Origin: Deltaproteobacteria bacterium
Lineage (GTDB): Bacteria > Desulfobacterota > Binatia > HRBIN30
Length of the DNA stretch: 42,984 nucleotides
Assembly (NCBI GenBank): GCA_016200585.1
Contig: JACQEN010000200.1
Coordinates: 1-42,984, forward strand
Direction of reading: 5' to 3'
The notes under the pieces: generated by a model
What the model was told of the DNA's origin: nothing
The model's input: the letters and a program-made list of their open reading frames with translations, nothing else
Databases searched by the model: none
Position numbers and translations under genes: made by a program
Shown here: positions 21,045 through 42,984 of the stretch, piece after piece
How the letters are laid out: each line of letters begins with the position of its first letter
Numbering within the stretch: position 1 is the stretch's first letter

Positions 21045-22109
21045 TTGGCGAGCTGCGGGGCACGGATGGAAGCTTTCCCCGGAATGAATCGTATTCCCGC
21101 AGGGGAAAGAGCAGCGTTCAACCTGCTCTTTCTCCTCGAGCACTACTTTCCCAAGAGCCGCCGCATCCAGCACATGCGCGAATCGGCGCGCCGGCGTGCC
21201 GTTGCGCATCTTCAACGCGGCCCCAAGGGCAAACTGATCGAAGTCCAGAGAGTCAAGGACATTTCCGCGAGCGATTTCCGCAAATCCTTTCTGTCCAAAG
21301 GCATCCCTCTGATCATCGAAAACGGATCGGCAAACTGGCCCTTGGCCAGCCGCTGGTCGTTCGAAAAGTTCCACCAACGCTACGGCCACGAAACCATCAA
21401 ACTGGTGCAACGCAAAGGCGTCGCGGCCGATGACGAAATCATCGAAGGCAAGGAGTTCTCCGAAGAAATCCAGTTCGGTGCATTTCTCGACCAGGTCACG
21501 AACGGCGGCACGAAGTACATGCGTTTCTCGCCCCTGCTCGAGAAATTCCCTGAATTGCTCGACGACTTCGATCACGACTTCTTCAAACGAATGGCCGGAA
21601 ACAGTTGGGGTCTGACCTACCAGTTGTTCATGGGCGCCACCGGTACCTTCACGCCGATGCACAACGCCATGACCTCATTCTTCTTCGTCAACGTCTGCGG
21701 CATCAAACGTTGGGCCCTGATCCCGAACCACTACTTGCCGATCTTGAACCCAAGTGCCGACGGCTTCGGCTACAACCACTCAAAGGCGCAAGCCGATCTC
21801 TCCAACGTAACGGACTTCCCGGGTCTCGAATGCATCGACAGGATGGAAGCGGTCATGCAACCCGGGGATATCCTGTTTCTGCCTTCCTGGATGTGGCACT
21901 CGGTCCGCAACGAAGCTCCGACCATCGGCGTACGCTGCGGATTCATCTACCCGAAAGGGATGGCAACCGAAGCAACAACCCTTTCGTTCATCCGACTCTT
22001 CGCGGCCCGCAACCCATCGACGCTCGAGGCGCTGTACTACGTCTTGTTCAAGCGCAACCTGCCGGAGCGCGACAAGTGGCTGCTTACGGCAAAGCTAATC
22101 CGCAGGTAG
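21045..22109 (+). CDS. Cupin_8/JmjC-like protein with HxA in place of HxD
   Basis: FTPMHNAMTSFFFVNVCGIKRWALIP and QPGDILFLPSWMWHSVRNEAP; otherwise same layout as 7708..8592. Confidence 0.85.
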   Translation: MASCGARMEAFPGMNRIPAGERAAFNLLFLLEHYFPKSRRIQHMRESARRRAVAHLQRGPKGKLIEVQRVKDISASDFRKSFLSKGIPLIIENGSANWPLASRWSFEKFHQRYGHETIKLVQRKGVAADDEIIEGKEFSEEIQFGAFLDQVTNGGTKYMRFSPLLEKFPELLDDFDHDFFKRMAGNSWGLTYQLFMGATGTFTPMHNAMTSFFFVNVCGIKRWALIPNHYLPILNPSADGFGYNHSKAQADLSNVTDFPGLECIDRMEAVMQPGDILFLPSWMWHSVRNEAPTIGVRCGFIYPKGMATEATTLSFIRLFAARNPSTLEALYYVLFKRNLPERDKWLLTAKLIRR

Positions 22110-23786
22110 CCGCGGATCTCGCAACGCAATCCGACAGATCCCATCGTCGGTCGCGGCCCACAGGGTTTTGTGTGCCGGGTCGAGAAACAGATTCCTGCAC
22201 AAGCGACCGCACCAGGCGATGCGTTCGGCGCTCTGCGTCGTTGCGTCAACCCGGAAGACGTCGCCATACAGCGAGCACGTGTAGAGAGCACCGGAGCCCG
22301 GATCGCGCTGCAGGTCGCGCGCCCCGAATCCTGTGACGATACGGTACAGAACGCGGTAAGAGCTCGTGTCGACTCCGATCACCTCTCCGGTGAGCGGTCG
22401 GGCACCCCAGAGCACATGGTGTTGCGAATCAAGCACCGTCTCATACACATCGAGGGTCGACGCCCTCTGCGTCAGGGCCAGAGAGTCGAGGTTCCATTCG
22501 TACAAGCCTCCGTCCTCCATCGCGCTCGAGACGTAGATGAGGCGCGAACGGAGATCGGGGGTAAAATGCCAAACGCCCCAGTAGGCAGCCGAAAGATCCC
22601 CGCTAGAACCGGCCGCCCCGGTGTCGCGATTCATGACGACATAGTGCGACTTCCACTCGCTCACGGTGAAGACATTCCCGGTGGCCGGATCCTCGGCAAA
22701 GGCCCACGGCGACCCCTTGTGCAACAAATCGTGGCGCAGCTCCGCAGCCGGAAGAGGCGCAATGCGCTGCCCCGGCGCTGGACTCTTCCACCAGCCCAAA
22801 CCACCGAGCAATTGAACATAGAAACCGTTCGTCGGAGACTCCCAAATTCGCTGCGGATACCTGAGATCCGCCGCCCCGATCACGTAGCTCTCGTGCGCTT
22901 CGCCATAGGGATTTGTCAGGACATGAATCTGCTCTCTGTCCGTCCACAGCAACTCGGCAGGCTGACCAACAAGATGGAGGTCATAGGTCCAATGGTTGAG
23001 GATACGTTCGGGCGGCGCGCCTCTAGGCCGCAAGCGAGCTGTCGTGACTCCCACCGTAACCAGGGAAGCAGCGCATACGACCGAGAGCCCCCACATTCGA
23101 AGGGCACGGCTGGCGGAAACCGAAGATGCTGGCGTGGTTCGCAGCGCCACCAACCAAGACCCCAGGAGAGACACAAGAGCGGTCGGAACGAAGCGATGCA
23201 GCGGGCTGACAATTTCCGGCACGTCGTGTTGCATGGGCACACCGATCGTGAGCCCAAGACAAAGTCCACACGCAAGAAGGATCATCGATAAGATCGGCAA
23301 GCGCCGGCAACGCCAGAGATAGAACGCCGGCAGAAGTGCAAGCGGGAAGCAAAGTGCTCCCCATGAGTGGTCCATCACGTAGCCAAAGAAGCAAACCATT
23401 GCCGATAGCCACGCCGGGATAATCACCAACAGCGTATCCACCAAACCGACGGTGATCGGCCGCGTCCGACGCCAGGCAAGAAGTACAGCGGTGACGAGTA
23501 GCCACACGTAGCCGTGGTGCACTACGAAGAAATCGAAGGTACCCACCAGGACCCTAGGTCCCGATCCAAGCACCTCAAGAAGGATTCTTTCCGGAATTGA
23601 AATCCAGTTTCGGCCCCACTGTAGGGCCGCAGAGTAGGCAAGCAGCGAGAGGAACGCTGCGGTCGTGCCCAGAAATACGCCATTCCCGACCAGGCGTTCG
23701 AACGTCGCGCGCAGCCCGCTCATCGTGCCTGTGGATGTCAAAATCGGACCAAGCCCAAGAAGCAATCTGCGGCTACTGCGCCGCAA
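22095..23786 (-). CDS. Multi-TM protein with C-terminal beta-propeller-like domain
   Basis: N-terminal TM block, then LLWTDREQIHVLTNPYG, AFAEDPATGNVFTVSEWKSHYVVMNRDTG, LIYVSSAMEDGGLYEWNLDSL, GALYTCSLYGDVFRVD, LWAATDDGICRIALRDP. Start may be internal (MSGLRATFERLVG). Confidence 0.75.
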   Translation of the reverse strand: MRRSSRRLLLGLGPILTSTGTMSGLRATFERLVGNGVFLGTTAAFLSLLAYSAALQWGRNWISIPERILLEVLGSGPRVLVGTFDFFVVHHGYVWLLVTAVLLAWRRTRPITVGLVDTLLVIIPAWLSAMVCFFGYVMDHSWGALCFPLALLPAFYLWRCRRLPILSMILLACGLCLGLTIGVPMQHDVPEIVSPLHRFVPTALVSLLGSWLVALRTTPASSVSASRALRMWGLSVVCAASLVTVGVTTARLRPRGAPPERILNHWTYDLHLVGQPAELLWTDREQIHVLTNPYGEAHESYVIGAADLRYPQRIWESPTNGFYVQLLGGLGWWKSPAPGQRIAPLPAAELRHDLLHKGSPWAFAEDPATGNVFTVSEWKSHYVVMNRDTGAAGSSGDLSAAYWGVWHFTPDLRSRLIYVSSAMEDGGLYEWNLDSLALTQRASTLDVYETVLDSQHHVLWGARPLTGEVIGVDTSSYRVLYRIVTGFGARDLQRDPGSGALYTCSLYGDVFRVDATTQSAERIAWCGRLCRNLFLDPAHKTLWAATDDGICRIALRDPRLPAD

Positions 23787-25926
23787 CCAAGGGCCCGGGA
23801 ACCTGAAGCTCTACAGTGGCCAGACGGTGCGAAGGAAACACTTTCATTTCATCGCGCCAGGCCCAGCGACTGAACGCAGGTTTGTAACGACGATAGCGCC
23901 ATTGAGCTCTCACCTTTGCACCTGCAGGAGCTTCCTCCGAACGCAAAACGATCTCATGGACGAGCGCGCGCTCAAAACCGATGGTCGACAGTTCGACGCG
24001 CGCTACACGGTCGATCGCGTGCTCAGACAATTCATTGCCGTCCGTATCGAAAACGCTTCCACCGAGACGAGGCGCGCGTGGATCGATCGCGCCAGTGATA
24101 GGATCGCAGCCGATCACGGTATGCCATTCACCTTGCGGCACCTGAACGAGCACCTCGAGCCAGTATTGGGAAAGATCGGGTGGACCGCTCGGGAAATCAT
24201 GGCCAACCTTGTGGTTCGTGCTGGTCACGGTCAGTACGACCGCTCCGTCACCCGCTGGCTTTATCGTCGCCGACATGTCCAGCACTTTCCGATGCTCGAC
24301 ATAGTCCTCAAATGCGTTAATCCGCGTGTCGCGGATCAGGTGGAGATAGTTACGTTCCCAGTCCGAAACCTTGTGGTCGCCATCGAGAAACAGCCGGAGG
24401 AAGTCCGCCGTCTCGCGAAGATCCTCAGCGAGGAAGGGTTCGTCCGGGGAGAAGTCGTTGGGAATCGCCTCCGGGAGATCGAGCGCGATGCCCGGAAAAA
24501 CGTGATCCGGTCGGGCATGCATGCTCTTTTCTTCCAGGTGCGGGTAGGCGTCGAGGTTGTTGTGGCATTTTTGACAGGTAACGCCCCGCTTCTCGAGCTC
24601 ACTGCGTTGCCAACCGAGAAGCTCGTCGAACATGACGACGTCGTTGCCGGCGACGTCGACGTGGTGCTCACCGTGACACGCCCCGCACATCTCGGAGCTG
24701 TGCATGTATTCATGGAAGTATTTCCGGCGGTGAAAATACGCATCCTGGTTGAGGTATCCGCGCCGCAAGTCGTCGAGGTCGGCGCGATCCGGAACCCACG
24801 GGAAGGGGGTATCACGCTCAATTCGAAAATTTGCTGAGAAGCGTCCATACTGCGGAAGCGGAGGCGCCCGAAAGTGACAACCTTCGCAGCTCACACCGTC
24901 GCGCGCGTAGGCTTTGACGGCAGACCAGTCCTGCCGCGCATACGCACCGCTCGCTACAGCAAGTGGGTTGTGACAGGTCGCGCAGAACATCTCGGCATCG
25001 CGACCCCTTCGTGCAACGAAGGCTTCCGAAGCGCGAAGATAGGCAACTGTTTGGGAGGCAAAACGGTGGGCACTGCCGTGCCATTGCCTGTAGGGACCGA
25101 CGTGACACTCGGCCTGCGCACAGCTCCGGGAGGCTTGGAACAATTCCGGGTCGAGGGAGCCGACTAATGTCACCTGCTCTTTTGCGATGTGTACCGAAGC
25201 CTGCGGCATGGTTCGGTAACTCAGGTCTTGCGGCACCGCCCGCGCCAACGACCGAGTCTGGTATGCAACCCACCCAGCCTGCACCACAAGCAGTCCGGCA
25301 ACCGTAGCGTACCAAACGCGCGGCAAACGATACGCGGCGCTGGACGGCGTGCGCCGCCGGCGCGCGCGCGCGTGTGCCCACATGAGCAAGGGGACCGCCG
25401 GCGTGAGCGCGAGATGCGTCCAGTGGTAGAACGTCGTACGCATCGACGTCCATCCCGCTGCCATGACGTAGCCGGTGTCGATCACCCCCCCGAGCGCCAG
25501 CATCACGCCGACCGCGGTCGCGTAGCTCTGCCACGCATAGCCGCGGCGGGAGCGCCACCACAGCCATGCAGCGAGTACGCCGCCCAAAAGGATGCCGATG
25601 ATCGTCGCTGCTTGAAATGGAACTTCGATGAAGAACAGACAAAAGAATACTACGACCCAAACGACCAACCAGGGCAAGAAGGTCCACGGTGCACCAATGC
25701 GCAGAGTGTGGGCTGCCAGGTACCAGACACCAAGCGGCACGAAAAGGATCCCCAGCAGGACGTGCAGCTTCGAAAGGACGTAGAACGGAAGGTTGGGTTC
25801 CAAATGCAGCAGGGCAAGAGCCGCACCGCTGGCGATGAGCAATACCAGCAATGCCAACAGGACCGCCAAGATCACGGGCGGTACCGGGCTCCTTCTGACA
25901 GCTGACGGAGGACCGCCCAACGCCAT
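23773..25926 (-). CDS. Multiheme c-type cytochrome with N-terminal multi-TM (His-rich) domain
   Basis: CATCH, CEGCH, CGACH, CQKCH plus CAQAECH (CX4CH). ORF to 26001; ATG at 25926 (MALGGPPSAVRRS). Confidence 0.9.
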   Translation of the reverse strand: MALGGPPSAVRRSPVPPVILAVLLALLVLLIASGAALALLHLEPNLPFYVLSKLHVLLGILFVPLGVWYLAAHTLRIGAPWTFLPWLVVWVVVFFCLFFIEVPFQAATIIGILLGGVLAAWLWWRSRRGYAWQSYATAVGVMLALGGVIDTGYVMAAGWTSMRTTFYHWTHLALTPAVPLLMWAHARARRRRTPSSAAYRLPRVWYATVAGLLVVQAGWVAYQTRSLARAVPQDLSYRTMPQASVHIAKEQVTLVGSLDPELFQASRSCAQAECHVGPYRQWHGSAHRFASQTVAYLRASEAFVARRGRDAEMFCATCHNPLAVASGAYARQDWSAVKAYARDGVSCEGCHFRAPPLPQYGRFSANFRIERDTPFPWVPDRADLDDLRRGYLNQDAYFHRRKYFHEYMHSSEMCGACHGEHHVDVAGNDVVMFDELLGWQRSELEKRGVTCQKCHNNLDAYPHLEEKSMHARPDHVFPGIALDLPEAIPNDFSPDEPFLAEDLRETADFLRLFLDGDHKVSDWERNYLHLIRDTRINAFEDYVEHRKVLDMSATIKPAGDGAVVLTVTSTNHKVGHDFPSGPPDLSQYWLEVLVQVPQGEWHTVIGCDPITGAIDPRAPRLGGSVFDTDGNELSEHAIDRVARVELSTIGFERALVHEIVLRSEEAPAGAKVRAQWRYRRYKPAFSRWAWRDEMKVFPSHRLATVELQVPGPLVAAQ

Positions 25927-26294: not shown

Positions 26295-28433
26295 GTGCTC
26301 GATCAGCGTGGTTCGGAGTCGGTGAGCCGCCGTGCCATCGTTCAGGCGCTCGTTCTAGGTTTGTGCTCGGGCGCGTTGTTCTGGGTATTTTATCGCGTCT
26401 TCACGGTGAAGTTCCCGCTCAATTTCGTCAGCCCGATTTATTCAGCGGTGCCGTTGTTCGGAATCCCGCTGGGCCTTGCTCTGGCTCGCCGTTCGCCCGC
26501 TCCCGGTTTGCGCGCCACGATCTTGATGGGCGTTGGAATCGCCCTCTTTGCCGTTTCTGCGCTCGCCTACAAGGACAAGTCCGTTCACTATCTGCTTTTC
26601 GGCGCCTACTACGACTATCCAGCCCCGACGAGCGCGTGGGTGACCCGTGGGTTGCTGGCATCGGTCCCACTGGCGATCGTACCCTTTTTGGTGACCACCT
26701 GGACGTTCGCGCGGCTACCGAGCTTGTCGCGTCGGTTCACGACACAGGTGCTCGTCCTCGGTATCGGTGGCGGTGTCTTGTTGGCAGAGCTCTTCACCCC
26801 GACTCTCGGTGCCTATTCGATTCTCATCGCGATGTGCGCTCTTTGCGCGGTCTTCCTACCCGACTGGCGCATCGGGCTGGCCACGGCCGCGATAGTCGGG
26901 GTCGCAGGGACCGCCATGTATCACCCGCTCGAAGCCATCTTCACTTGGCAGCTCAGAGAGTACAAGCGGGTCGAGACGTATTGGACGCACCACTACAAGT
27001 GGGATTGGATCGAATTCGACAAAGGGCATTGTGTCGGCGGCGTGCACAACGAGATCATGATCCACTACTCGTGCGACGTGCCGGAGAAGCTGCCGCTGAC
27101 GCACTTGAAGATGGCCGACGCGATCTCGAATGGTCCGATCCGGCGCGAGCACGTGGCCAGTCTGGGACGTTCCGACGGCATCATCGCGGCAGCTCACAAA
27201 TTCAAGAACCCGAACCTCAAGCACTTCGTGGCGGTCGAAAACGACGAGCGCGTCGTCCACGACATGCTGGAGCGCTACACGCATCACGAAGGCGACATCT
27301 TCACGACCAGCCCCAGCATCGAGCTGGTGGGCGGAAGCGAACGACTCTGGCTCCAACGCACGAAGGAAAAGTTCGACGCGATCTACCTCGATGGTATCGG
27401 CTTGATGCTCGTACCGTTCCCGTTCACGGTGATTCAGCAGGAGAACTATCTGTTCTCGGCCGATGCCTATCGCCGAATCTTCGATGATCTCTTGACACCG
27501 AACGGCGTGCTCATCGTCGATCGCGGCACCACGGTAAACGGCGAGTCGAAAGATCTGGCGGCCGGACTACCCGAAGACGTTCAAGTGCGAACCCTGTTCA
27601 CCAAGATTCCCACCTACCCGCTCACCGGTTTGCCGCTCGTTTATATCATCGCTTCACGGAACGGAGCAGAGCTCGACCGAATCGTCGGCGAGCTGGTCAA
27701 GGGCAACCTCTATGGGCGAGATGATTTCCTCGCCGCGGAATCGCGCCGGCGCTGGAGCTCGGACGATCGGCCGATGTTCCAACCGGGCTCGATCAACGCC
27801 ATGATGGTAGTTATGTCGCCGGTCGCACTGCTGACGCTCGTCTTCGTCGTGTTGATCCTCAACAAGCAGGTTGGCAGTTGGGTGAATCGCGATGTCGGGC
27901 AGCAGCTTCTGCTGGGCGTTCTCTTTTCGACGATTGCCATATGGCTAACGGCACGTGGAGCGCGTGCGTTCGTGGCCGGTCCGCAAATGGGCTTCGCCTA
28001 CTCCTTCGCATCGATGTTCGCCGGAGTTGGCTGCGGGCTTCTGGTCACGCGGAACTGGCGTTCACAGGCTTCGACGATTGCAACTTTGGCGGCATGCGCG
28101 GTTGCTTTCGCGATTCAACTCGTCTGGCCGTTCGAGCCGGCGGTCGCGTTGGGCGCTTCGGTGTGCGGCGGCTTAGGCCTTGGCGCACTGGCCACCGGAA
28201 GTCGGTCATCGACATCATCGTCTCCGGAAGGTCTCGAGCTGATGCTCGGAATTCTGCTCGGCATTTGGGTCTTTCAGTTGGCCCTCTTGTTTGCCGGCTT
28301 TACGCTGCTGGCGGTCTGCGTTTCCGCGATTCTTGCGTTACAAGCTGTTTACCTTCGGCAAGCGCCCCTTGCCTCACGCTCCTCCTCGACAGCCACCGGC
28401 TTCGCGCCACGCATCTCTGCGTTCGGAGATTGA
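26295..28433 (+). CDS. Membrane protein with central spermidine-synthase-like (Rossmann) domain
   Basis: N- and C-terminal TM blocks flank HFVAVENDERVVHDMLERY...GDIF...KEKFDAIYLDGIG...YLFSADAYRRIFDDLLTPNGVLIVDRG; the usual GGGDG is replaced by GRSDG. Confidence 0.75.
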   Translation: MLDQRGSESVSRRAIVQALVLGLCSGALFWVFYRVFTVKFPLNFVSPIYSAVPLFGIPLGLALARRSPAPGLRATILMGVGIALFAVSALAYKDKSVHYLLFGAYYDYPAPTSAWVTRGLLASVPLAIVPFLVTTWTFARLPSLSRRFTTQVLVLGIGGGVLLAELFTPTLGAYSILIAMCALCAVFLPDWRIGLATAAIVGVAGTAMYHPLEAIFTWQLREYKRVETYWTHHYKWDWIEFDKGHCVGGVHNEIMIHYSCDVPEKLPLTHLKMADAISNGPIRREHVASLGRSDGIIAAAHKFKNPNLKHFVAVENDERVVHDMLERYTHHEGDIFTTSPSIELVGGSERLWLQRTKEKFDAIYLDGIGLMLVPFPFTVIQQENYLFSADAYRRIFDDLLTPNGVLIVDRGTTVNGESKDLAAGLPEDVQVRTLFTKIPTYPLTGLPLVYIIASRNGAELDRIVGELVKGNLYGRDDFLAAESRRRWSSDDRPMFQPGSINAMMVVMSPVALLTLVFVVLILNKQVGSWVNRDVGQQLLLGVLFSTIAIWLTARGARAFVAGPQMGFAYSFASMFAGVGCGLLVTRNWRSQASTIATLAACAVAFAIQLVWPFEPAVALGASVCGGLGLGALATGSRSSTSSSPEGLELMLGILLGIWVFQLALLFAGFTLLAVCVSAILALQAVYLRQAPLASRSSSTATGFAPRISAFGD

Positions 28434-28524: not shown

Positions 28525-30282
28525 ATGAACGTACCGATTGGCGAAAGGATCTTTGGTCCTTTCTTGAAGGTTGCGCCGCGACACACGTGGTCCCGATTCC
28601 TGGTGCTCGCTGTCGATGTGGCGGTCTTCAACCTCATCTTCTACGAGACACTCCGGTCGCTGCTGCTGGAACCCCTCGGCTACACGACAGCCGCCGGTAC
28701 GATGGCGTGGCTGGCAGCATTCGCGAGCCTCCTGTTCCTTCTACACGGATTGAAACCGCGCCAGGGAGCCCCACGTCTCGCCGGCTTGATGTTCGAGATC
28801 GTCATCTTTGCCGGGATCTTCGGTCTCGCCGCGTACGCCGCCAGCTTTACAACCACGGACAAGGGCGTCGACTTTTCGTGGTTGCGCATCGAGATCGTCA
28901 AAACCCCGCTGTGGTTCAAGATGTTCGTGAAGGCATGTCCGGGCTTCACAACGTTCGCCGTCGTAGCGGTATCTGTTTTGGCCTGGCGCTGGGTGTCGTC
29001 GCCGCAGAGCAGATTTGTCCGGCTTGCACCCGGTATCGCCGTCGCGGCCTTCATCCCGGCGATTGTCGCCACCTTCCTGCCGATGACCGACGACGGCTCG
29101 AAGTGGCAGTTCTATGTCGTCATGTTCACCGGGCCATTGATCGGATTTTGGATCCTGCTCGCGTGCCGCGCCTCCGTTCTGGCGTTCCGCATGTTTCCCT
29201 TCGTCCTCCATACGGCGTTGATCGCACTCAGCTACATCGGCCTCATACCGGTCAACGCCCTGTCGCCGGAATTCGTCTGCGAGGGCGGCGCATCCCAGCC
29301 AAATCAATTTGGTGTCGCCCGGCTTTTCCCTCCCGACGACAAGAAGCCTGATCCGTCCTTCCGATTCTTGCGCAAGATGATTCTTTCCGACGATCGCGCC
29401 TACTTCAGCTACGGTCCGACCTGCGGCATCTATTCCGTGCAGCGCGACACCGGAGCGCTGCAACAGCTGCCGATGCGCGGTCTGCTGCGCGACATCGGAT
29501 GGAGCAAGGACGGAAACAGTCTTTTTGCGACGAACTGGATGCGCGGTGACTTCATGGCCATCAATGGGGCCACCCTGAAGCCGGTCTGCTCGGCCGATAT
29601 CTTCCACCAAGGAATGGCGACTCCGTGGAGTTTCGTCGTCGATGACACGAGCGACCACGTCTACATGTCCAATATGACTCTGCCGATCGTAGCCGAGCTG
29701 ACGGTGCACATGGATGCGGACGATTGCCGCGTGCACATCGACCGTAGCATCGATTTTCACGCAACCGGCTACACTGGTTTTACGGACGGAGCATACGGAC
29801 TGCACGTCGATCGTAAGCGCGACCGGTTGTACGTCCTCGTCGGCATGCTCGAGGGTAGATTCGAAATGAGCCTCGTAGAGATCGAGTTGAGCTCGTTCAC
29901 GGTTCTGCGCAACGTTCGCATGCCGGCCGGCGCGACGCTGGTGCCGGTACGCGGACGCGACACCGTACTGCTGCCGAGCTACTACCTCGATACGATTTAC
30001 GAGGTTTCGCTGCCGGACATGAAGCTCGTGCGCACGATCGAAGCCGCACCCACCATCACGGCGATCGAACAGGATGAAAAGAGGGGCGTGTTCTACGCAA
30101 CCTCGCGCACGACCGGGGAGCTGATGGTGATCGATGATGCCAGCGGGAAGGTGCTGCGTTCTTTCGCCGTCGGCGCGAAACCCGAAGCCCTGAAACTCGC
30201 CCGCGACGCCGATCAGCTCTTCCTAGGAAGCGGCCGCGGCATCTTTCGCATCGACCTGGCGCGCTTCTGGCCGGCGTCCTGA
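28525..30282 (+). CDS. Multi-TM protein with C-terminal beta-propeller-like domain
   Basis: About 240 aa of TM, then repeated motifs: CGIYSVQRDTGALQQL, GWSKDGNSLFATNWMRGDFMAI, RDRLYVLVGMLEG, KRGVFYATSRTTGELMVIDDASGKVLRSF, DQLFLGSGRGIFRIDL. Confidence 0.78.
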   Translation: MNVPIGERIFGPFLKVAPRHTWSRFLVLAVDVAVFNLIFYETLRSLLLEPLGYTTAAGTMAWLAAFASLLFLLHGLKPRQGAPRLAGLMFEIVIFAGIFGLAAYAASFTTTDKGVDFSWLRIEIVKTPLWFKMFVKACPGFTTFAVVAVSVLAWRWVSSPQSRFVRLAPGIAVAAFIPAIVATFLPMTDDGSKWQFYVVMFTGPLIGFWILLACRASVLAFRMFPFVLHTALIALSYIGLIPVNALSPEFVCEGGASQPNQFGVARLFPPDDKKPDPSFRFLRKMILSDDRAYFSYGPTCGIYSVQRDTGALQQLPMRGLLRDIGWSKDGNSLFATNWMRGDFMAINGATLKPVCSADIFHQGMATPWSFVVDDTSDHVYMSNMTLPIVAELTVHMDADDCRVHIDRSIDFHATGYTGFTDGAYGLHVDRKRDRLYVLVGMLEGRFEMSLVEIELSSFTVLRNVRMPAGATLVPVRGRDTVLLPSYYLDTIYEVSLPDMKLVRTIEAAPTITAIEQDEKRGVFYATSRTTGELMVIDDASGKVLRSFAVGAKPEALKLARDADQLFLGSGRGIFRIDLARFWPAS

Positions 30283-32681: not shown

Positions 32682-34736
32682 ATGCGGTTCGAAGTCCCCG
32701 GTCGCATACGAATAGAGATGTGGCTACGGGCCTTGCTTCTCGGCTCGACGCTGTTCCTTACCTGCACGGGCGTATCGACGCTGATGTTCTCGGAGCCCAC
32801 AGTAGGCGTGCAGTTCACGCAACTTATGCACGCCCGGGTCGGGGCTGCCTGTGTTGCCCTGGGCACGGTCTATCTCCTTGTGCACATACTCAGCGTCAGC
32901 AGGGGCACGCGCCCGATCCTTCGCATGCTGCCATGGAGACAAGTCCTGCTGATCGCGCTGATTCCCCTGGTCCTCAACCTGCTGGTGTTCCCGCCACCGC
33001 TGGAAGCACATCCGATTTTCAACCGGCTACTGACGTCGACCGCCATCGCCCTTTCCATCGTGTTTGTTGGCTTGGCACGACAGGTGGTCGTGCGCGGCGT
33101 GCGTAGCGTCACCCGGAATGGCGTGGCAGCCTTTCTCGGCGCTGTCATCGCGGCTACGAGCGGCCTGGCTGTCTTCTGGTTACTGCCCAACCCTGCCGCG
33201 GTCGCCAGCAAGTACACCTCGCCGTGGTTCTGGCACGTCATGAGCTCGATGCTCACGCTCGTCCTGGTTCTGCGTCACATCCTCTCGTCGCGGCAACGAG
33301 CGGTCCGAGACCATGCCCTACGGCGATACCAATGGAACGGCAACGTACTGTCTACATCCTTGTCGTTGTCGGTGGCACTTGGCGTGTGGACGATTGTCGG
33401 TGCGAAGGCAGTCACCAGCAGCGTTCGACCGTTCTTGCCCGACCTCGACGCATTGGTGGCCGTCGATCAGGATTTCTTCCCGACGGTCCCATCCATCTGC
33501 CAGCAGTGTCACATTCAGATCGTCGATGGCTGGCGACGTTCGGCGCACGCGCTGGCTGCCGACAATCCTGTATTCACCGCGATGATTCGCGCCCGATCCG
33601 CACGTTTCGGCAACCACAGCGTACGCTTCTGCCTTCGCTGTCACGCACCGCACGCCCCGGATCCAACGCGAGTTGCCCTGGATGTCGTCACGTCGAGCGC
33701 CGGGTATCGCGCCGGTGTGCACTGTATGTCCTGCCATCGCACCAACCCGGGACCCCTGCCACGCGACGGGTCGCTGATTGGATTCCCGCGCGCAGCCGAT
33801 CCGGTGACCTCACTCGCCGAACACGCGGAAGCGGACCTGGGAATATCACTCGACAACGCCGCCTTGCCGTTGATTTCCAGCCGTCTCGATTCACATCGCC
33901 GGCTGTATCGCTTCGCATCGCATTCACCCGAATTATGTCGACCGTGTCACGTCCAGTCGCTCAGCGAGCCGAGCCACGGTCGCTTCGCTGTGCTGCTTCA
34001 GGACCAGTACGGCTCGTGGTCCACGTCACCCGCAGCGGCACAAGGTCGCGACTGCAAGGGATGTCATCTGCCGCGCTACCGATCCGACGGTGACGAGTAT
34101 CAATTTGCCGATCACCGTTTCCTGGCTGCTAGTACCTACATCGCTGCCATCATGCCGGGCGAGCCCGCGAGGGTCGCGGACGTGGTCTCGACTCTGCGCG
34201 GGCACATGCCCACGTTTGGCAGCCCCTTGGATGGCGGTGTCGCCGGCGATTCGCGGCCGCTGCTGGAAATGACGGTCGAACGTGCGCCGCCTGATTCCCA
34301 GAGCACCGTCCTACTCGTCACCACCGAGAACAGAGGCAGGATCGGCCATTCCTTCCCGAACGGCCCCACAGACTTGTTGGAGGTTTGGTTGTCGATTCGC
34401 GGTGTGGATGCAACAGGTCGAATCATCGTCGACCTTGGCCGCGATCGGCCACCGGGTGCGTTGCGCCTTGGTTCAACCTTCGAAGACGCAGCCGGGAATC
34501 CGATCCACGACCACCGCCTGGAAGATATCTCCCGCATCGTTGAACACGGAACCATTCCGGCAAGCGGACGCTTCGAGGTGCGGGTACCCATCGACGGGCC
34601 GGCGGTCTTCCCCGTACATGTAGTGGCCGAGTGGCACTACAGGCGTCTCAACCCGGAGGTCGTCGCCTCGCTCACCGGAATGGAGCTTGATTTGCCTATC
34701 GTCCCAATCGCGAGATTCGAAGGAGATGTCGGGTAG
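32682..34736 (+). CDS. Multiheme c-type cytochrome with N-terminal multi-TM (His-rich) domain
   Basis: CQQCH, CLRCH, CMSCH, CRPCH, CKGCH; C-terminal RIGHSFPNGPTDLLEVWLSIRGVD...VAEWHYRRLN. Confidence 0.92.
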   Translation: MRFEVPGRIRIEMWLRALLLGSTLFLTCTGVSTLMFSEPTVGVQFTQLMHARVGAACVALGTVYLLVHILSVSRGTRPILRMLPWRQVLLIALIPLVLNLLVFPPPLEAHPIFNRLLTSTAIALSIVFVGLARQVVVRGVRSVTRNGVAAFLGAVIAATSGLAVFWLLPNPAAVASKYTSPWFWHVMSSMLTLVLVLRHILSSRQRAVRDHALRRYQWNGNVLSTSLSLSVALGVWTIVGAKAVTSSVRPFLPDLDALVAVDQDFFPTVPSICQQCHIQIVDGWRRSAHALAADNPVFTAMIRARSARFGNHSVRFCLRCHAPHAPDPTRVALDVVTSSAGYRAGVHCMSCHRTNPGPLPRDGSLIGFPRAADPVTSLAEHAEADLGISLDNAALPLISSRLDSHRRLYRFASHSPELCRPCHVQSLSEPSHGRFAVLLQDQYGSWSTSPAAAQGRDCKGCHLPRYRSDGDEYQFADHRFLAASTYIAAIMPGEPARVADVVSTLRGHMPTFGSPLDGGVAGDSRPLLEMTVERAPPDSQSTVLLVTTENRGRIGHSFPNGPTDLLEVWLSIRGVDATGRIIVDLGRDRPPGALRLGSTFEDAAGNPIHDHRLEDISRIVEHGTIPASGRFEVRVPIDGPAVFPVHVVAEWHYRRLNPEVVASLTGMELDLPIVPIARFEGDVG

Positions 34737-34796
34737 CGATCTTTGGCGGCTACCCATTGGTCGTCGCATTCACCGCTCAATTCATTGCGGATGGTC

Positions 34797-34830
34797 GGAT
34801 CGGCTGATACGGAGGCACAGAGGAATACCG
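34797..34830. repeat. Possible second remnant of the same class of dispersed repeat (GATCGGCTGATACGGAGGCACAGAGGAATACC)
   Basis: Minus ORF 34637..34852 begins MIFRLSFPVFLCASVSADP, the kind of spurious peptide given by such repeats; weak resemblance only. Confidence 0.25.
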
Positions 34831-34833
34831 GGA

Positions 34834-35991
34834 ATGACAGGCGGAAAATCAATCCTCGAGCTTGCGCCAGGTTCGCCTCCGATACGGGACGTCGAGGACG
34901 GTGCTCCCAAGACGCGGGAGTTCAACACATCTCGCTACACATCACCCCAGATCTTAGAACGCGAGAAGGATCTCATCTTTCGCAAGACATGGATCGCGAT
35001 TGCCCGCGAGTCGGATGTAACGCGCCCGGGTGATTGCCTTCCGATCGACGAGTTGGATGAATCGCTGGTCGTTGTGCACGGCGAAGACAACGTCGTGCGG
35101 ACGTTTCGCAATTCGTGCAGACATCGTGGCACACGCATTTTCTCCGGCCCGTGTCACCTGCGGCGCATCGAGTGTCCGTACCATAGCTGGACCTATCACC
35201 TGGACGGGCGACTGATCGGCGTTCCGAAGCGTGAAGGATTTGCCAATCTCGACAAGCAAACTCATGGCCTCCTTTCTGTGCGGACCGAATGCTGGGGCGG
35301 GTTCGTCTGGATCACGTTCAATCCCGATGCGCCACCGGTGCGCGAGTACCTGGGCGCATTGGCCCCTCAGCTTGAGCCGTACCGGCTGACGGACATGCGA
35401 CCGCTTTACAGACGTACGCATGTGTTGCCGTGCAATTGGAAGGCCGTGCTCGATCAGGCGACGGAGTCCTATCACATCGAAGCGGTTCACAGTCATTCCA
35501 TCGGTCGGGTGATCGATACGGTTGCGACCTTCTACGGGCTCGATCCACATCATCTGCAGACCATCCCCATTGCCGACTATCGCTGGCGTGCCTGGCTGGA
35601 TCGATTGACCGTGCCTGCGGATCTGCATTTCGAACCCGATCAGGTCAGACTCTTTCACAAGTACGTCATCTTCCCGAACACGCTCATCAACGTCATGCCG
35701 TATCATCTGACCGTATTTCGCGTGTTCCCGATCACACCGGATACGTGCCGCTTCCACTACGAGTTCCACATTCGCCAGAAAGCCAACCTCGTCGACCGCC
35801 TGCGCGGTTGGCTCACTCTGATGGCCTCGCTCTACATTCTCCGTGAGGACTTCGGCGTACTCCTACCCTTCCAGGCCGGCGCCAAGGCGGCAGGTAACCA
35901 TCGCATCCCCTTCCACAGCGAGGAGCAGCCGCTGGCGTATTTCCATGGCGTAGTGGATCGATACCTTGAAGCCGGTACGAACCCGAACTAG
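34834..35991 (+). CDS. Rieske 2Fe-2S aromatic-ring-hydroxylating-type oxygenase, alpha subunit
   Basis: Within ORF 34687..35991; ATG 34834 (MTGGKSILELAPG). Rieske CRHRG...CPYHSW; DQATESYHIEAVHSH matches the non-heme Fe site pattern. Confidence 0.92.
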   Translation: MTGGKSILELAPGSPPIRDVEDGAPKTREFNTSRYTSPQILEREKDLIFRKTWIAIARESDVTRPGDCLPIDELDESLVVVHGEDNVVRTFRNSCRHRGTRIFSGPCHLRRIECPYHSWTYHLDGRLIGVPKREGFANLDKQTHGLLSVRTECWGGFVWITFNPDAPPVREYLGALAPQLEPYRLTDMRPLYRRTHVLPCNWKAVLDQATESYHIEAVHSHSIGRVIDTVATFYGLDPHHLQTIPIADYRWRAWLDRLTVPADLHFEPDQVRLFHKYVIFPNTLINVMPYHLTVFRVFPITPDTCRFHYEFHIRQKANLVDRLRGWLTLMASLYILREDFGVLLPFQAGAKAAGNHRIPFHSEEQPLAYFHGVVDRYLEAGTNPN

Positions 35992-36107: not shown

Positions 36108-38006
36108 GTGGTCGCATTTTGTCTCGCAGGAACGATCTTCGGCGTGAAGATTGGCGGCGCATCTTCTCTAGCAGGTCGAGGGCCCCTGAGGTGGTCCGCG
36201 AGTACGGCCACCGTCACCTCGGACTGCTCCGGACAACCGGCCGTCACGCAAGTGATCTCCGATATTTTCGAAGCAAACGCTGGCTGTGATCTCAACTTCG
36301 ATCGTACCGTGAGCGCAGCAGACCTCGTCGCGGCCATCGCATCGCTCACAACTCCTTTGACGCCAACACCATCGAAGACACCGAGCGTCCCCCCTAGCGA
36401 CACGCCGACTCTTCCACCCTCGCAAACGCCTTCATTGACAACCACACCGTCAACCACGGCAACCGCGACTCCTTCCTCCTCGCCGACACCGCCGGCACCG
36501 AGCCCGACCGCAAAGCCGTTGAATCCGGCGATTGCATTCACCGACGTAACCAACGACGCCGGGTTGAACTACTCGGATGGCGCTGCTCTCAGGGGGAACG
36601 TCGCCGCCGGGGACTACGATGGCGACGGATGGACGGATGTGTATATGGTCCGCCGACAGATGGGCCCCAGCCGCCCTAACCCGCTGTTTCACAACCGCGG
36701 CGACGGAACGTTCGAGGAGGTGGCCAACTCCCCCGGAATGCTTGGAACGGGAGCGACATTTGCGGATATCGACGGCGATGGGCGGCTCGACCTTTACATC
36801 AGCGGAATATCCGGCAGCTCACCACAGCTGTACCGGAACGTCGGTGGTGGCAGCTTCATGGACGTCACCGCCAAAGCGGGCTTTGCGATTGACTACGAGG
36901 CGGATGAAAACCGCAGCGCAGCCTTCGGCGACTACGATCGCGACGGGTATCTCGATCTTTTCATGACGCACTGGGGAAGCCCGATATCGCCAGGCCGAAC
37001 GATCGAAAACTTGTGGCACAACAACGGCGATATGACTTTCTCAGGGGTAACCAATCATGCCAGCTTGCAGGGTCTTACGAGCGTTGTCCTCGGGCGGCCA
37101 GAATCGTCGTGGATGTACACCCCGAACTTCGCCGACATCAACAACGATGGTTGGCCCGATCTGCTCGTCGCCGCCGACTTCGCGACGAGCCGAGTTTATC
37201 TCAACAACCACGACGGAACGTTCACAGACGCTACGAATCAGGTGATCTCGGACGAGAACGGGATGGGAGCGGCCGTCGGGGACTATGACAACGATGGGAA
37301 CCTCGATTGGTTCGTCTCGAGCATCTGGGATCCGGTTGATGAACCGGAGCTGCCCTATCTCGGGGTCACGGGGAATCGGCTGTATCGCGGCCATGGTGAC
37401 GGCACGTTCGACGATGTAACGGACGCAGCTGGAGTGCGTGAAGGCTGGTGGGGCTGGGGCAGCTGTTTTGCCGATTTCAACAACGACGGAAACTTGGACA
37501 TCTTTCACGTCAACGGCCAGCTTCACTACGTACCCCTCTTCGTCACGGATCCCTCGCGGTTGTTCATTTCCAACGGCGACGGCACCTTCACCGAACGCTC
37601 ACATGAGCTCGGAATGGACGACCATGGTCCCGGACTCGGCGTCGTTTGTTTCGATTACGACGGTGATGGGGACATCGACATTCTCGTTGCCAACGATTCT
37701 CAGTCCGCACGGCTCTATCGCAACGATGGCGGGAACCAGAATGCTTTCCTCGATGTGAAACTGAGCGGCAGAGCTCCTAACACTGAGGCGATCGGCGCCC
37801 GCGTCTACGCAACATCAGGCGGCCAGACCCAAATGCGTGAACTGCGCGCCGGGAGCAATTTCGCTTCCCAGGATCCTGTGGTAGCTCATTTCGGCCTCAG
37901 CGATGCCACCGTCGTTGATTCCGTGCGCGTCGTGTGGCCGGATCAGACCTCGACAACGATGACGAACGTCACCGCAAGACAACATCTGGTCATCGTGCAA
38001 CCCTGA
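36108..38006 (+). CDS. Secreted FG-GAP/VCBS repeat protein with C-terminal ASPIC/UnbV domain, P/T-rich linker and dockerin-like motif
   Basis: Seven Ca-binding-type loops (DYDGDGWTD, DIDGDGRLD, DYDRDGYLD, DINNDGWPD, DYDNDGNLD, DFNNDGNLD, DYDGDGDID); UnbV-like GARVYATSGGQTQMRELRAGSNFASQDPVVAHFGLSDATVVDSVRVVWPD; N-terminal DLNFDRTVSAADLVAAI. Confidence 0.92.
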   Translation: MVAFCLAGTIFGVKIGGASSLAGRGPLRWSASTATVTSDCSGQPAVTQVISDIFEANAGCDLNFDRTVSAADLVAAIASLTTPLTPTPSKTPSVPPSDTPTLPPSQTPSLTTTPSTTATATPSSSPTPPAPSPTAKPLNPAIAFTDVTNDAGLNYSDGAALRGNVAAGDYDGDGWTDVYMVRRQMGPSRPNPLFHNRGDGTFEEVANSPGMLGTGATFADIDGDGRLDLYISGISGSSPQLYRNVGGGSFMDVTAKAGFAIDYEADENRSAAFGDYDRDGYLDLFMTHWGSPISPGRTIENLWHNNGDMTFSGVTNHASLQGLTSVVLGRPESSWMYTPNFADINNDGWPDLLVAADFATSRVYLNNHDGTFTDATNQVISDENGMGAAVGDYDNDGNLDWFVSSIWDPVDEPELPYLGVTGNRLYRGHGDGTFDDVTDAAGVREGWWGWGSCFADFNNDGNLDIFHVNGQLHYVPLFVTDPSRLFISNGDGTFTERSHELGMDDHGPGLGVVCFDYDGDGDIDILVANDSQSARLYRNDGGNQNAFLDVKLSGRAPNTEAIGARVYATSGGQTQMRELRAGSNFASQDPVVAHFGLSDATVVDSVRVVWPDQTSTTMTNVTARQHLVIVQP

Positions 38007-38074
38007 ATTTGGGCCGATCGCGTTACCCGGCCCCCGTGCCAGGGGACAGAAGCCACGGCGCCCTCGCCGGCCAT

Positions 38075-38090: not shown

Positions 38091-38144
38091 GGCTCGACTG
38101 CCTTTCTCTTGATCTTCGCTGCAACGCCATGATAGCGCTCGCGC

Positions 38145-39695
38145 ATGTCGCACCAAGCCGCCGGCGTGGGAGACGGGGGGAACGGCAGCTCTGTGAATTC
38201 AGACCAGCGACCGTCGACTCTGCTGCTCTATCTATCCGTAGACGAGGAGTGGGAACGCTTGAAGACGCTTCAGGAAGTGCAGAGGCGTCCCTCGCTTGGA
38301 ATGCAGTACCTGATGGCCGCTCTGACCCGCGATGGGTATCCCTTCCAGTATCGCGACCAGGTAGTTCAGGATTTCACGTTGGAAGACGTTCTCGACGAGG
38401 TGAACGACCAGGGTCACAGCATCGTCGGAATCCACTGTAACGTCGTCTACTATCAAAAGGTCTGTCGCTACGTCGCGGCCCTCAAAGAGAAGACCAGGGC
38501 ACGCGTCATCGTCGGCGGCCCCGGGACGTCGCTCGCCTCGGAGTTCATCGCGGCCGGAGCGGATTGCGTCGTCAAGGGAGAAGCCGAGTTCCGCTTGACT
38601 GCCATCATCGATGCCCTGACCGGCAACGGCAACCTCGACGGTATCCCGGGCGTCGTATTTCGCAACCCGCTGGGCGAAGCTCGTGAAACTCCACCGGCGT
38701 CGCAGATCACCAACCTGGATACGCTACCGTTTCCCTACCGTCCGCCCGAGTTGGTTCCGCTCTACGGCGAGGAGATCAATCCGGTTTCGCACCGGCCGAA
38801 CATCAGCATCATGGCCTCAAGAGGCTGCCCTTTTCGCTGCAGCTTCTGTAGCTCGCATGAGGTTTGGCAATCGAGCGTACGCACCCGCTCTCCGGAGAAC
38901 GTTCTCGACGAGGTTGCGCACGTTCTGCAGCGCTGGCCGAATGCCTATTTCAGCTTCGTGGACGATATCTTTGGCCAGAACGCCGTCTGGGTGGAACAGT
39001 TTTGTCGCCAGGTTCTCGAGCGTGGGTTGCAGTTCAAGTGGATGTGCATTCTCCATCCGCTGTGCTTCCCGAAGAATCGTGCGAATCTGATCCCGCTCAT
39101 GAAGGCAGCCGGTTGTAACTGCATTTCCTTTGGCGCCCAATCCAATTCACCGGACATCCTCAAGAACATTCGGCGCTACGCACACGAACCGCGCGAGCTG
39201 GCGCAGGCAATTGCCCTTTGCAAGGCCAACAACATCATCGTCGTCGTAACGTACATCTTCGGCCTTCCCGGCGACACGCCGGAAACTTTGGAAGAGAACA
39301 TCCGCTTTGCCCTGATGCATCGACCTCACTTGGCAGATTTCCACCCGCTCAGCGTCTTGCCCACGTCCCATATCGACCGTGAATTTCGCGGACAGGACAA
39401 GCAGATCACTGCCCTTTCGCAGGACGAAATCGAGAGGCATTGCGCCGACGCGTTCCGTCGATTCTACCTGCGCCCGGCGGCGGTATGGTTGCTTCTTCGA
39501 ACGATTGTCCGAGATGACCCGCGGCATGTGATCAAGCTGTGGCCGGCAATCAAGAAGGGGCTGCAGCTCATGCTCCCACAGCGCGAATTCAAGCGTCCGC
39601 TCTCGACGGCTCAGCCCGACCGAGCTTGGGCGACCGAGGTGACAAAGCAGGTCGCTCCCGAAGGCGCTGTACCTGTCGCGTTCGAGGCGCGCTAA
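38145..39695 (+). CDS. B12-binding-type radical SAM protein
   Basis: RARVIVGGPGTSLASEFI; ASRGCPFRCSFCSSHEVW; YIFGLPGDTPETLEENI. Confidence 0.92.
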   Translation: MSHQAAGVGDGGNGSSVNSDQRPSTLLLYLSVDEEWERLKTLQEVQRRPSLGMQYLMAALTRDGYPFQYRDQVVQDFTLEDVLDEVNDQGHSIVGIHCNVVYYQKVCRYVAALKEKTRARVIVGGPGTSLASEFIAAGADCVVKGEAEFRLTAIIDALTGNGNLDGIPGVVFRNPLGEARETPPASQITNLDTLPFPYRPPELVPLYGEEINPVSHRPNISIMASRGCPFRCSFCSSHEVWQSSVRTRSPENVLDEVAHVLQRWPNAYFSFVDDIFGQNAVWVEQFCRQVLERGLQFKWMCILHPLCFPKNRANLIPLMKAAGCNCISFGAQSNSPDILKNIRRYAHEPRELAQAIALCKANNIIVVVTYIFGLPGDTPETLEENIRFALMHRPHLADFHPLSVLPTSHIDREFRGQDKQITALSQDEIERHCADAFRRFYLRPAAVWLLLRTIVRDDPRHVIKLWPAIKKGLQLMLPQREFKRPLSTAQPDRAWATEVTKQVAPEGAVPVAFEAR

Positions 39696-39738
39696 GCTAC
39701 CGAAAGCTCGCCAAGGCGCCGGTGTTTTACCGTCCGTT

Positions 39739-41715
39739 TCACTGCGACTCGACTGTTGGTTGTTGACGATTTGTAATGTCCACAACCGAGAGCCCAGCGC
39801 GCCCATCGGCGACGTAGAGCTGACCATCAGCCAGGGCGACGCCCCAGGCGCGGTCGCGTGTACGGGTGCTAGCCAGTAGTCGTGGCGCATCGGCGTCTTG
39901 CACATCGACTAACCATACCCCACTGTCGGCCGCCGCAACCGCCGCGAGGCCATCGCGTACCGCTAGTCCGAAGGCGCGGCCCGGAAGAGAGAGATGGGCG
40001 CGAACCACGGGGCTCACGGGATCGGCGACATCCACGACCTCGAACGTGCCTCCGTAGGTGACCAAGTACATGAGCGTACCGGCAGGCGCGAGGCTCATGA
40101 CTCGTCGCGGACCCTTCCAGAGGAGGCGCGGTTCGGCTTGCGATACGTCGAGCAGTCGCAATCCGCCGAAGAAATCCGCAACCGCCAGCATGTTGTCCAT
40201 CGCCTGAACGGTAAACGCGTAGCCGTCTTTGGGGCCCGTAGCGACGATGTGTGCGGCCAGCGGGTCCACCGCAGAATAGCCGTACATCCCCTCGGCTGTG
40301 TAGACACGCGTCTTCCCCATCGACACCGCCAGGGCACGTTCCGGCGTATCGACCGTCAAAAGGTCGCGCGGAGCTGTCGCGTCGGTCACATCAAGGACAC
40401 GCAGCCCAAGCTGGCCTTCGGCGACATAGGCGCGCGACGCATCGACGGAGACGTCATAAGCGTAGTCTCGGGTACCGGCATGTGACACAAGCCGTGGTGG
40501 GCCAGCGGCCTGAATGTCATAGATTTCGAGCCCGCCACTGCCACGAGCCACGTAGGCAAAGCCTCCCGCCAGTTGCACGTTGCGGGCTTCGGCATCGGGT
40601 ACATACTGGGACTCGAGCCGTGGGCTATCCATCTCGGATACGTCGAGGAGGGCAATTCCCTGACCGAGCAAACCGACGACGGCACGGTCGTTCGAAAACG
40701 CAATCGAATGAGCGCAGCCGGGCAACGCGAGAGTGCGCACCAGCCGCAGCGCAACCGGATCGGTGATGTCGACGATGGCGACGCCGTCTGGCTCCTGCGC
40801 CAGGTAGGCGCGGTTACCGTGCAAGCGCACGTCCATCGTCTCACCCGGCAGAGAGAGCTGGGCGACGACTCGGGGGGCGCTTGGATCGCTCACCTCGGCC
40901 ACAACGAGGTCGCGATCGACCGACGCCATATACACGAAACTACCACGTACGCGGATGCTCAGCGGAGGCGGGTCGATGGGCTCAAAGGGCCGCGAATCGA
41001 GGGCGGGAGGTAGCGTCAAAGATGCCCGCTCGGTCAGTTCCCCCGTAGCGGCTGCATCCAGCACGATGAGTCCTCTTTGCGCGTCGGTTACGTAAACGTG
41101 GGCACCATCCTCGGACACAGCGACGTTGTTGGCCCAACGAACACCTAGATACGAAGTAATCTGGTGCGGCCGGCGCGGGTCGGAGATATCGAACACGCGA
41201 ACGCCTTTGGTGCGCTCGGTAACGTAGAGGCGGTTTCCGGAAAAGGCAGCGCCAAAGGTGTATCCGAAGGTCCGTAGAGTGGCGAGGAGCGCGGGATGAG
41301 CCCGGTCGGCCACATCGATTACGACGAGCCCGCCGTCTCCGGCGCAGACGTAGAGCACGTCACCGCGCAGAGCCATGTCATGAACGAATCCCCCGACCGG
41401 CACGCGCGCAATCGGGGTCAGGCTTCCTCCGGCTTTGAGGTCGAAAACCAGCACCTCGAAGGCACCGCCTGCGAACGCATGGGTCGCGCTCGCCTCCACC
41501 CACAGGAGAGGACGACCCCAGAAGGTCAGCAGCGGGCCACGGAAATCGAAGGCCCACTGAAACCCGACTTTGACCAGATCCGCCAGCCCGGCTTCAAAGC
41601 TACCGAGGCCCCGCACGAACACCAGGCCGGCAAGGGTTACGATCAGCAGTCCTGCGACGATTGCGGCGCTGCCAAAGAAGCGCGCAACGCCGCGCGCTCG
41701 ATTGGTTAGGTGCAC
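39739..41715 (-). CDS. LVIVD-repeat beta-propeller protein with N-terminal TM anchor
   Basis: Many 'GLVVIDVADRAHP', 'GVRVFDISDPRRP', 'GVAIVDITDPVAL', 'GLRVLDVTDATAP' repeats; TM segment SAAIVAGLLIVTLAGLVFV; GTG start at 41715. Confidence 0.9.
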   Translation of the reverse strand: MHLTNRARGVARFFGSAAIVAGLLIVTLAGLVFVRGLGSFEAGLADLVKVGFQWAFDFRGPLLTFWGRPLLWVEASATHAFAGGAFEVLVFDLKAGGSLTPIARVPVGGFVHDMALRGDVLYVCAGDGGLVVIDVADRAHPALLATLRTFGYTFGAAFSGNRLYVTERTKGVRVFDISDPRRPHQITSYLGVRWANNVAVSEDGAHVYVTDAQRGLIVLDAAATGELTERASLTLPPALDSRPFEPIDPPPLSIRVRGSFVYMASVDRDLVVAEVSDPSAPRVVAQLSLPGETMDVRLHGNRAYLAQEPDGVAIVDITDPVALRLVRTLALPGCAHSIAFSNDRAVVGLLGQGIALLDVSEMDSPRLESQYVPDAEARNVQLAGGFAYVARGSGGLEIYDIQAAGPPRLVSHAGTRDYAYDVSVDASRAYVAEGQLGLRVLDVTDATAPRDLLTVDTPERALAVSMGKTRVYTAEGMYGYSAVDPLAAHIVATGPKDGYAFTVQAMDNMLAVADFFGGLRLLDVSQAEPRLLWKGPRRVMSLAPAGTLMYLVTYGGTFEVVDVADPVSPVVRAHLSLPGRAFGLAVRDGLAAVAAADSGVWLVDVQDADAPRLLASTRTRDRAWGVALADGQLYVADGRAGLSVVDITNRQQPTVESQ

Positions 41716-42984
41716 CCGGCTCCCGGACGCTCGACGTGGCAGCTGGCACTCGCAAGACGTGTCACCGGAAACGACGGCGCGGTTGGGCCGAACGTGTCAT
41801 CTACAAACGATCGACGGGCGCGCCGGTAGCGCAACTCGGCATGCACATCGAGCGGATAGCGCACGGCGACATCGGCCGGAAGAAAGAACGTCTCCTCGCG
41901 CGGCTCACCCGGTACAAGCAGGCGGCGTTCGCCAATCGCGGCGATACCAAAGATATCGTGATGCGCAAGCGGCGCACTGTTGGCGTCGAGCAGCGTCGCC
42001 CCGAAGCGATGCGCGCTTGCCGGAAGTTTGCCGACTTCGTCCAGCTCGCCCGAAGCGTATACGACACCGTCCGGATCGACGACTTCGGCAAAGAGCCAAG
42101 CCTCGGTCAGATCGGGCGCGCCGACAGGGAACGGGTGGCCAGCGCGCGCATTCTCGACGACGACGACGATCTGCAAAGGCGTACCGCTGACACCATTCAG
42201 ACGCAGATCAAACGCCGGCTGTGCCGTGGCGGCGCTATAGTTGCCAGTCGTACGGCGCTTACCTGCAAGCCACGCCTCGGTGCCTTGATCCCCTTCCGCA
42301 ACCGCGAGCCGTAGAGCCGGAGCCGTATCGCTAGGCAGCATCGCAGCCCACTGGGTGTTGACTCCGAACATGTGATGATTCGGAAAAGGGACGCCTTCGG
42401 TGCCGCGTGCATCGGTCGGCATGTGGCAGCTCTTGCACGGAGGTGCGGAACTCTGGCCTTGGCTGTCGTAAGGGTTCGGTAAGACGAGCGCAGCCTGTCG
42501 CGGAGGATGTCCCGGTAGCTCGATTCGATGACAATTGCCGCAAAACCCTGGCGAGCCAAAGAGCGGTGAATTCGAGAAGGCCTTGAAGTGCAGGCGAAGG
42601 TCATCCCGGATCTGTTCATCCGATGGCGCACGATACGACTCCCCCGGCACGACAGGCCCCAGAGCGCGCTCCTCCTCGCGAAAGAGCGCGATGCCATTGC
42701 GAGGTGGATTCCCGATCTCATAGGTCAGATGGCAAGCCTTGCAGGACACGCCCTGGTCGGCGTCCATGGCAGCCGGAGCGGTTGCGACGCGCCGACGGGC
42801 GGCGTTCGAGGCGCTCTCGCGGGAGCCCGCGGACGCCGTCCAGGTCTTGGCGACATAGGAGACCTGGCCGAGAAGGCGGTCGCTCGTCGTGGTCGGGGAG
42901 CCCCTTCCCGAGATTTGCCGCCGGTCGTACTCCGCAAGGAAATGCGGCCACTTCTCCGATTTCGTCCCGAATCGGGCGTAGAGG
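41706..42984 (-). CDS. Multiheme c-type cytochrome, C-terminal part (N-terminus beyond right edge)
   Basis: CKACH, CGNCH, CKSCH; shared C-terminal domain RAGHPFPVGAPDLTEAWLFAEVVDPDG...HAELRYRRARRSF. Frame stays open to the window edge (LYARFGTKSEKWPHFLAEYDRRQ...). Confidence 0.88.
   Translation of the reverse strand, partial: LYARFGTKSEKWPHFLAEYDRRQISGRGSPTTTSDRLLGQVSYVAKTWTASAGSRESASNAARRRVATAPAAMDADQGVSCKACHLTYEIGNPPRNGIALFREEERALGPVVPGESYRAPSDEQIRDDLRLHFKAFSNSPLFGSPGFCGNCHRIELPGHPPRQAALVLPNPYDSQGQSSAPPCKSCHMPTDARGTEGVPFPNHHMFGVNTQWAAMLPSDTAPALRLAVAEGDQGTEAWLAGKRRTTGNYSAATAQPAFDLRLNGVSGTPLQIVVVVENARAGHPFPVGAPDLTEAWLFAEVVDPDGVVYASGELDEVGKLPASAHRFGATLLDANSAPLAHHDIFGIAAIGERRLLVPGEPREETFFLPADVAVRYPLDVHAELRYRRARRSFVDDTFGPTAPSFPVTRLASASCHVERPGAGCT

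Follow-up and report, generated by a model that had tools for sequence, protein, structure and literature searches.

When a multiheme cytochrome gene stands beside a beta-propeller gene, do the two products belong to one enzyme? The question is raised by contig JACQEN010000200.1 (C358 in our numbering), which belongs to a 5.6-Mb, 85% complete genome bin of a Deltaproteobacteria bacterium (Desulfobacterota; Binatia; HRBIN30) and was analyzed over its entire length of 42,984 bp; this whole stretch is referred to as the window. Its four multiheme cytochrome genes, cyt1 to cyt4, lie within 20 kb and are the sole members of their family detected in the genome, and a sequence-only reading had described them as a repeated module in which each cytochrome has a propeller neighbor. 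We find that the pairing of this cytochrome family with a propeller is real and recurrent among other genomes, and that the window's own pairs are partly supported. We consider it reasonably probable that these proteins are quinone-linked multiheme oxidoreductases with periplasmic propeller subunits, and that the window holds a divergent version, in four copies, of a two-gene module that is found widely.

Anatomy of the cytochrome family

The cyt1 gene (23773-25926, minus strand) encodes a predicted FdnI-type membrane domain with two histidine pairs (HX17H and HX13H), followed by a pentaheme c552-type domain with four CxxCH motifs and one CX4CH motif, and a C-terminal Ig-like domain. The same architecture is found in cyt2 (30223-32397, minus strand), in which the first heme motif is CX5CH and the other four are CxxCH, and in cyt3 (32682-34736, plus strand), in which all five are CxxCH. 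The cyt4 gene (41706-42983, minus strand) is cut by the contig end, and its visible part contains three heme motifs and corresponds to the heme and C-terminal region of the same family. Both cyt1 and cyt3 keep the four conserved histidines of an FdnI/HydC-type four-helix membrane bundle. In cyt2, the second histidine is gone from both pairs (replaced by R and M), and such a joint loss is expected if one b heme was lost as a unit. At 24-26% identity between cyt3 and each of the others, the four are divergent paralogues.

A profile built from 43 family members matches the pentaheme cytochrome c552 of T. tepidum among solved structures (3e-9), and also DCYTB (1.3e-4) and E. coli FdnI (1.7e-3). 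When the family is aligned to FdnI, three of its four conserved membrane histidines coincide with FdnI histidines, and these FdnI residues are heme ligands. The HX17H and HX13H pairs lie upstream of the heme domain in 76 of 83 sequences, and the five c-heme motifs together with four additional histidines are near invariant in approximately 120 homologues. The AlphaFold model of cyt1 (pLDDT 72.7, pTM 0.69) has a helical N-terminal region with membrane helices at residues 17-156, a mostly helical heme domain after them, and strands at the C-terminus. Among PDB folds, its sole significant match is the pentaheme c552 structure 5ze8 (E 1.9e-7, TM-score 0.56 by target length), and a Pfam scan of the cytochromes gives weak matches to cytochrome c554 domains. 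The five c-heme motifs of cyt1-3 and the c552 fold of the cyt1 model agree with membership of the pentaheme c552/ExtKL (PHC) family. The evidence best supports a cytochrome in which a membrane domain of four helices, with two pairs of histidines like those of the diheme cytochrome b FdnI, is joined to a pentaheme domain of the c552/ExtKL kind.

In the tree, the window cytochromes sit on long branches with the membrane-anchored group and outside the clades linked to UnbV propellers, with modest branch support in that part. A search with the window profile across 148 class genomes and 48 that bear the module described below found no closer relative above about 226 bits; the separate search at the phylum level scored two candidates per genome. 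Elsewhere in the family, a longer subfamily (about 900-1000 aa; L044:7322-10156 and several of L147-L164) carries TPR repeats at the C-terminus, and short and long forms coexist in many genomes.

Linkage to UnbV propellers in other genomes

A scan of species genomes queried with three UnbV-linked members gave 519 confirmed stretches, of which the best 80 were taken by cytochrome similarity and not by the presence of UnbV. Together with L042-L044, these make 83 loci, and their neighbors were counted from stop-to-stop frames. Five loci (L088, L109, L137, L139, and L164) end without room downstream. A FG-GAP/UnbV propeller gene lies immediately downstream on the same strand in 72 of the remaining 78, a rate that covers well-matching loci, the window itself lying in the divergent part of the family. 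This is the recurrence among homologues on which the sequence-only reading had made its proposal depend. The commonest spacing is a 4-bp overlap, and 57 of 69 UnbV partners have an N-terminal transmembrane (TM) segment. No second neighbor family recurs at a comparable frequency around the 80 loci. According to record titles, which are the submitters' labels, the loci come from about ten phyla and include Planctomycetota, Acidobacteria, Gemmatimonadetes, Bacteroidetes, Opitutaceae/Lentisphaeria, Marinimicrobia, Latescibacterota, Ardenticatenales, Proteobacteria, and Poribacteria. At L042 and L043, from the family and order of the source organism, the cytochrome is flanked by two UnbV propellers.

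The six exceptions with room downstream are L127, where one 6-heme gene intervenes, L151, where UnbV is upstream, L161, and three loci of Poribacteria. The Poribacteria cytochromes (L154:9911-12592, L157:3978-6674, and L162:2-2698) have no UnbV neighbor, and each has also lost one of the residues predicted to bind the second b heme. This coincidence of UnbV absence with the loss of a b-heme ligand is suggestive, and it comes from one clade.

From FdnI, CbcL (PMC6295460), and the pentaheme family (PMC11976967), we infer the following mechanism. Each cytochrome would be an integral, quinone-linked electron-transfer protein whose FdnI/HydC-type membrane domain, with two b hemes (one in cyt2), passes electrons over the cytoplasmic membrane while oxidizing quinol or reducing quinone. 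The electrons would then reach the fused periplasmic pentaheme domain of the c552/ExtKL type. The adjoining beta-propeller, usually membrane-anchored, would be the matching subunit in the periplasm; most likely, it would dock on the pentaheme domain and set the redox partner or substrate of that domain instead of bearing redox groups. The widespread module would thus consist of a diheme-b/pentaheme-c cytochrome and then an anchored FG-GAP/UnbV propeller.

Candidate cytochrome-propeller pairs of the window

The window contains cytochromes of the family, with membrane domain and pentaheme domain, and no anchored UnbV gene immediately downstream of any of them. Directly downstream of cyt1 lies TMprop1 (22095-23786, minus strand), which has N-terminal TM segments and a predicted YncE-like propeller; the two genes overlap by 14 nt if TMprop1 starts at a TTG, and its first ATG is 49 nt past the cyt1 stop. 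Directly downstream of cyt4 lies an LVIVD propeller gene (39739-41715, minus strand; Pfam E 3e-51) with one N-terminal TM segment, overlapping cyt4 by 10 nt with a GTG start. In the proposed mechanism, the propeller slot would be taken by a YncE-like protein after cyt1 and by an LVIVD protein after cyt4.

The gene positions and the LVIVD and FG-GAP/UnbV identities given by the sequence-only reading are confirmed, and a propeller, in the case of cyt1 a predicted one, directly follows cyt1 and cyt4. This does not extend to the other two cytochromes. TMprop2 (28525-30282, plus strand), with TM segments and a YncE-like propeller, converges on cyt2 with a 60-nt overlap, and the two are therefore not one transcription unit. 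The FG-GAP/UnbV propeller gene near cyt3 (36108-38006, plus strand; Pfam E 3e-55 and 1e-19) is separated from it by one gene, which encodes a Rieske-type ring-hydroxylating oxygenase alpha subunit (34687-35991, plus strand; the real start is probably further downstream), as had been noted. In addition, the four different propeller subfamilies of that reading are reduced to three, since the soluble halves of TMprop1 and TMprop2 are related (Z = 6.7, reached in 0 of 300 shuffles).

The LVIVD pairing has a counterpart in the same genome. The genome encodes two LVIVD proteins, and the one that does not adjoin cyt4 is fused to a ten-heme, ExtM-like cytochrome (L222:2420-6334(-), G000:C168; 90 bits against ExtM, under the cut-off of 800). 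This fusion has a match in 20 of the 148 class genomes, mostly across most of its length, and therefore gives independent support for the pairing of LVIVD propellers with multiheme cytochromes. It is a single chain with about ten hemes, whereas cyt4 has a separate, anchored propeller gene. The proposal that the propellers are extracytoplasmic partners in a repeated module is thus partly supported, by the recurrent linkage at the UnbV loci and by the LVIVD-multiheme fusions, while the YncE-like pairing finds no outside support in the 148 class genomes.

Several points weigh against the proposed mechanism and against reading the window as a version of the widespread module. The choice of the query and of the best 80 loci leaves the divergent part of the family undersampled, and the FdnI and DCYTB profile matches that suggest the membrane domain are modest. 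TMprop1 has no Pfam match, its AlphaFold model (three-row alignment, pLDDT 36) is unusable, and its predicted propeller nature rests on similarity to TMprop2, whose own assignment is weak (NCBIfam YncE 2e-7; PDB YncE 0.003). No homologue of TMprop1 or TMprop2 occurs elsewhere among the 148 genomes of the class. The convergence of cyt2 and TMprop2 and the incomplete state of cyt4 count on the same side, as does the window UnbV protein, which reaches 330 bits against the canonical-partner profile, compared with 542-874 bits for the partners themselves. With no typical membrane anchor and one gene between it and cyt3, this protein is rejected as a partner of the usual type, contrary to what had been supposed. 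It also carries a Pro/Ser/Thr-rich linker behind an N-terminal stretch that is dockerin-like by eye and has no Pfam match.

Two of these points, the unusual UnbV protein and the convergence of cyt2 and TMprop2, speak for a second explanation, in which the window propellers are mere neighbors that came together through an accumulation of secreted or membrane proteins, and a functional pair exists only in other genomes, with UnbV. FG-GAP proteins are indeed frequent in the genome (matches on about 18 contigs), and TMprop3 (19438-20913, plus strand), another TM protein that may contain a propeller domain and is weakly similar to TMprop1 and TMprop2 (Z 1.4 and 2.4), adjoins no cytochrome. However, both of the rare LVIVD proteins are tied to multiheme cytochromes, and the close, same-strand propellers downstream of cyt1 and cyt4 repeat the arrangement of the homologous loci. 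We regard chance neighborhood as rather unlikely.

Among the other genes of the window, one between TMprop2 and cyt1 (26295-28433, plus strand) encodes a polytopic membrane protein in which a spermidine-synthase-like domain is weakly recognized. The region 617-19352 contains six radical SAM genes, one of them HpnJ-like (378 bits, under the cut-off), two glycosyltransferases, two JmjC-type cupins, and one fatty acid desaturase-like gene, and is possibly a lipid or natural-product cluster. The tetranucleotide composition of the contig correlates at 0.96 with the remainder of the bin, and a foreign or mis-binned contig is therefore unlikely.

Alternative functions, known systems, and meaning

Two further explanations concern the role of the propeller, and we hold both to be improbable. 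In the first, catalysis takes place in the propeller, and the cytochrome accepts electrons from it or donates electrons to it, on the model of hydrazine synthase (HZS) and other enzymes with both c hemes and propellers. Propellers are present in HZS alpha and beta, and CRTAC1-family FG-GAP genes occur in the clusters of HZS homologues (PMC12758564), which makes a catalytic propeller a real rival. An HZS-alpha homologue (PF18582, 9e-25) also precedes the UnbV-cytochrome module by a few genes in a locus of Planctomycetota (L090:2-12067). However, no HZS domain, the HZS alpha middle domain included, is found among the window proteins scanned with Pfam, no cofactor motif is seen in the propellers, and a shared catalytic site is unlikely if unrelated propellers fill the slot. 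HZS, for its part, has no described b-type membrane domain. The L090 locus contains, in addition, a soluble pentaheme-like cytochrome a few genes upstream of its module.

In the other explanation, which we judge no likelier, the module serves extracellular electron transfer: it forms the section in the inner membrane, electrons go on to a porin-cytochrome conduit in the outer membrane, and the propellers are adaptors to that conduit. Soluble pentaheme relatives that have no membrane domain (L046:7805-9199, L049:11007-12368, and L054:13486-14982) stand beside outer-membrane-barrel-like proteins, a barrel-like gene precedes the module at L042, the decaheme-LVIVD fusion resembles ExtM, and CbcL is a functional analogue (PMC6295460). 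However, these barrels were identified by eye, and two that were scanned with Pfam gave no match; no barrel-like gene was noticed in the window, and none is among the recurrent neighbors of the 80 loci. Electron delivery to the Rieske oxygenase or the desaturase of the cluster is set aside because both would be expected inside the cytoplasm or at the cytoplasmic face of the membrane.

The cytochrome with a docked periplasmic propeller remains our preferred explanation, and its parts resemble known systems. CbcL of Geobacter, MtrH, and MtoC, which are quinol oxidases or quinone reductases, also join a HydC/FdnI-type diheme b membrane domain to a multiheme c domain on one chain (PMC6295460). In CbcL, nine c hemes are N-terminal and six TM helices are C-terminal (PMC6295460), whereas the window cytochromes have the reversed order, with the membrane domain at the N-terminus, a pentaheme c domain of the c552 type, and a propeller gene after it; by analogy, they may work like CbcL. 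The pentaheme family, which includes T. tepidum c552, ExtKL, Gsu2801, and the cable-bacteria PHC, shares the pentaheme fold and the C-terminal Ig-like domain (PMC11976967). Its described members are soluble proteins outside the cytoplasm, and some come with a porin gene (extI), whereas here the pentaheme domain shares a chain with a diheme-b-like membrane domain, and its gene is linked to that of a propeller. Our search of the open literature found no published cytochrome-UnbV pair, the nearest case being the CRTAC1/FG-GAP genes beside HZS homologues (PMC12758564), and no published LVIVD-cytochrome pair, though two papers use both words. The earlier remark that no such system has been described is thus not contradicted. 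Each part belongs to a known kind (FdnI-like b, c552-like pentaheme, and propellers); what is new is how they are combined, together with the apparent exchange of propellers.

More tentatively, the module may represent a widespread class of respiratory enzymes, linked to quinone and so far undescribed, in which a diheme-b/pentaheme-c fusion works with a periplasmic propeller that can be exchanged; this propeller would be UnbV in most phyla and YncE-like or LVIVD here. By such an exchange, the same electron wire could be directed to a different partner or substrate, and four such wires would lie side by side in one genome. The window suggests that unrelated propeller families can occupy the propeller slot of a pair that is small and conserved. 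If the explanation is true, one more quinone-linked multiheme oxidoreductase would join the short list of CymA, CbcL, and ImcH, in a module present in Planctomycetota, Acidobacteriota, Gemmatimonadota, and other sparsely cultured phyla, and the common, functionally unassigned UnbV/CRTAC1 propellers of bacteria would have a concrete partner.

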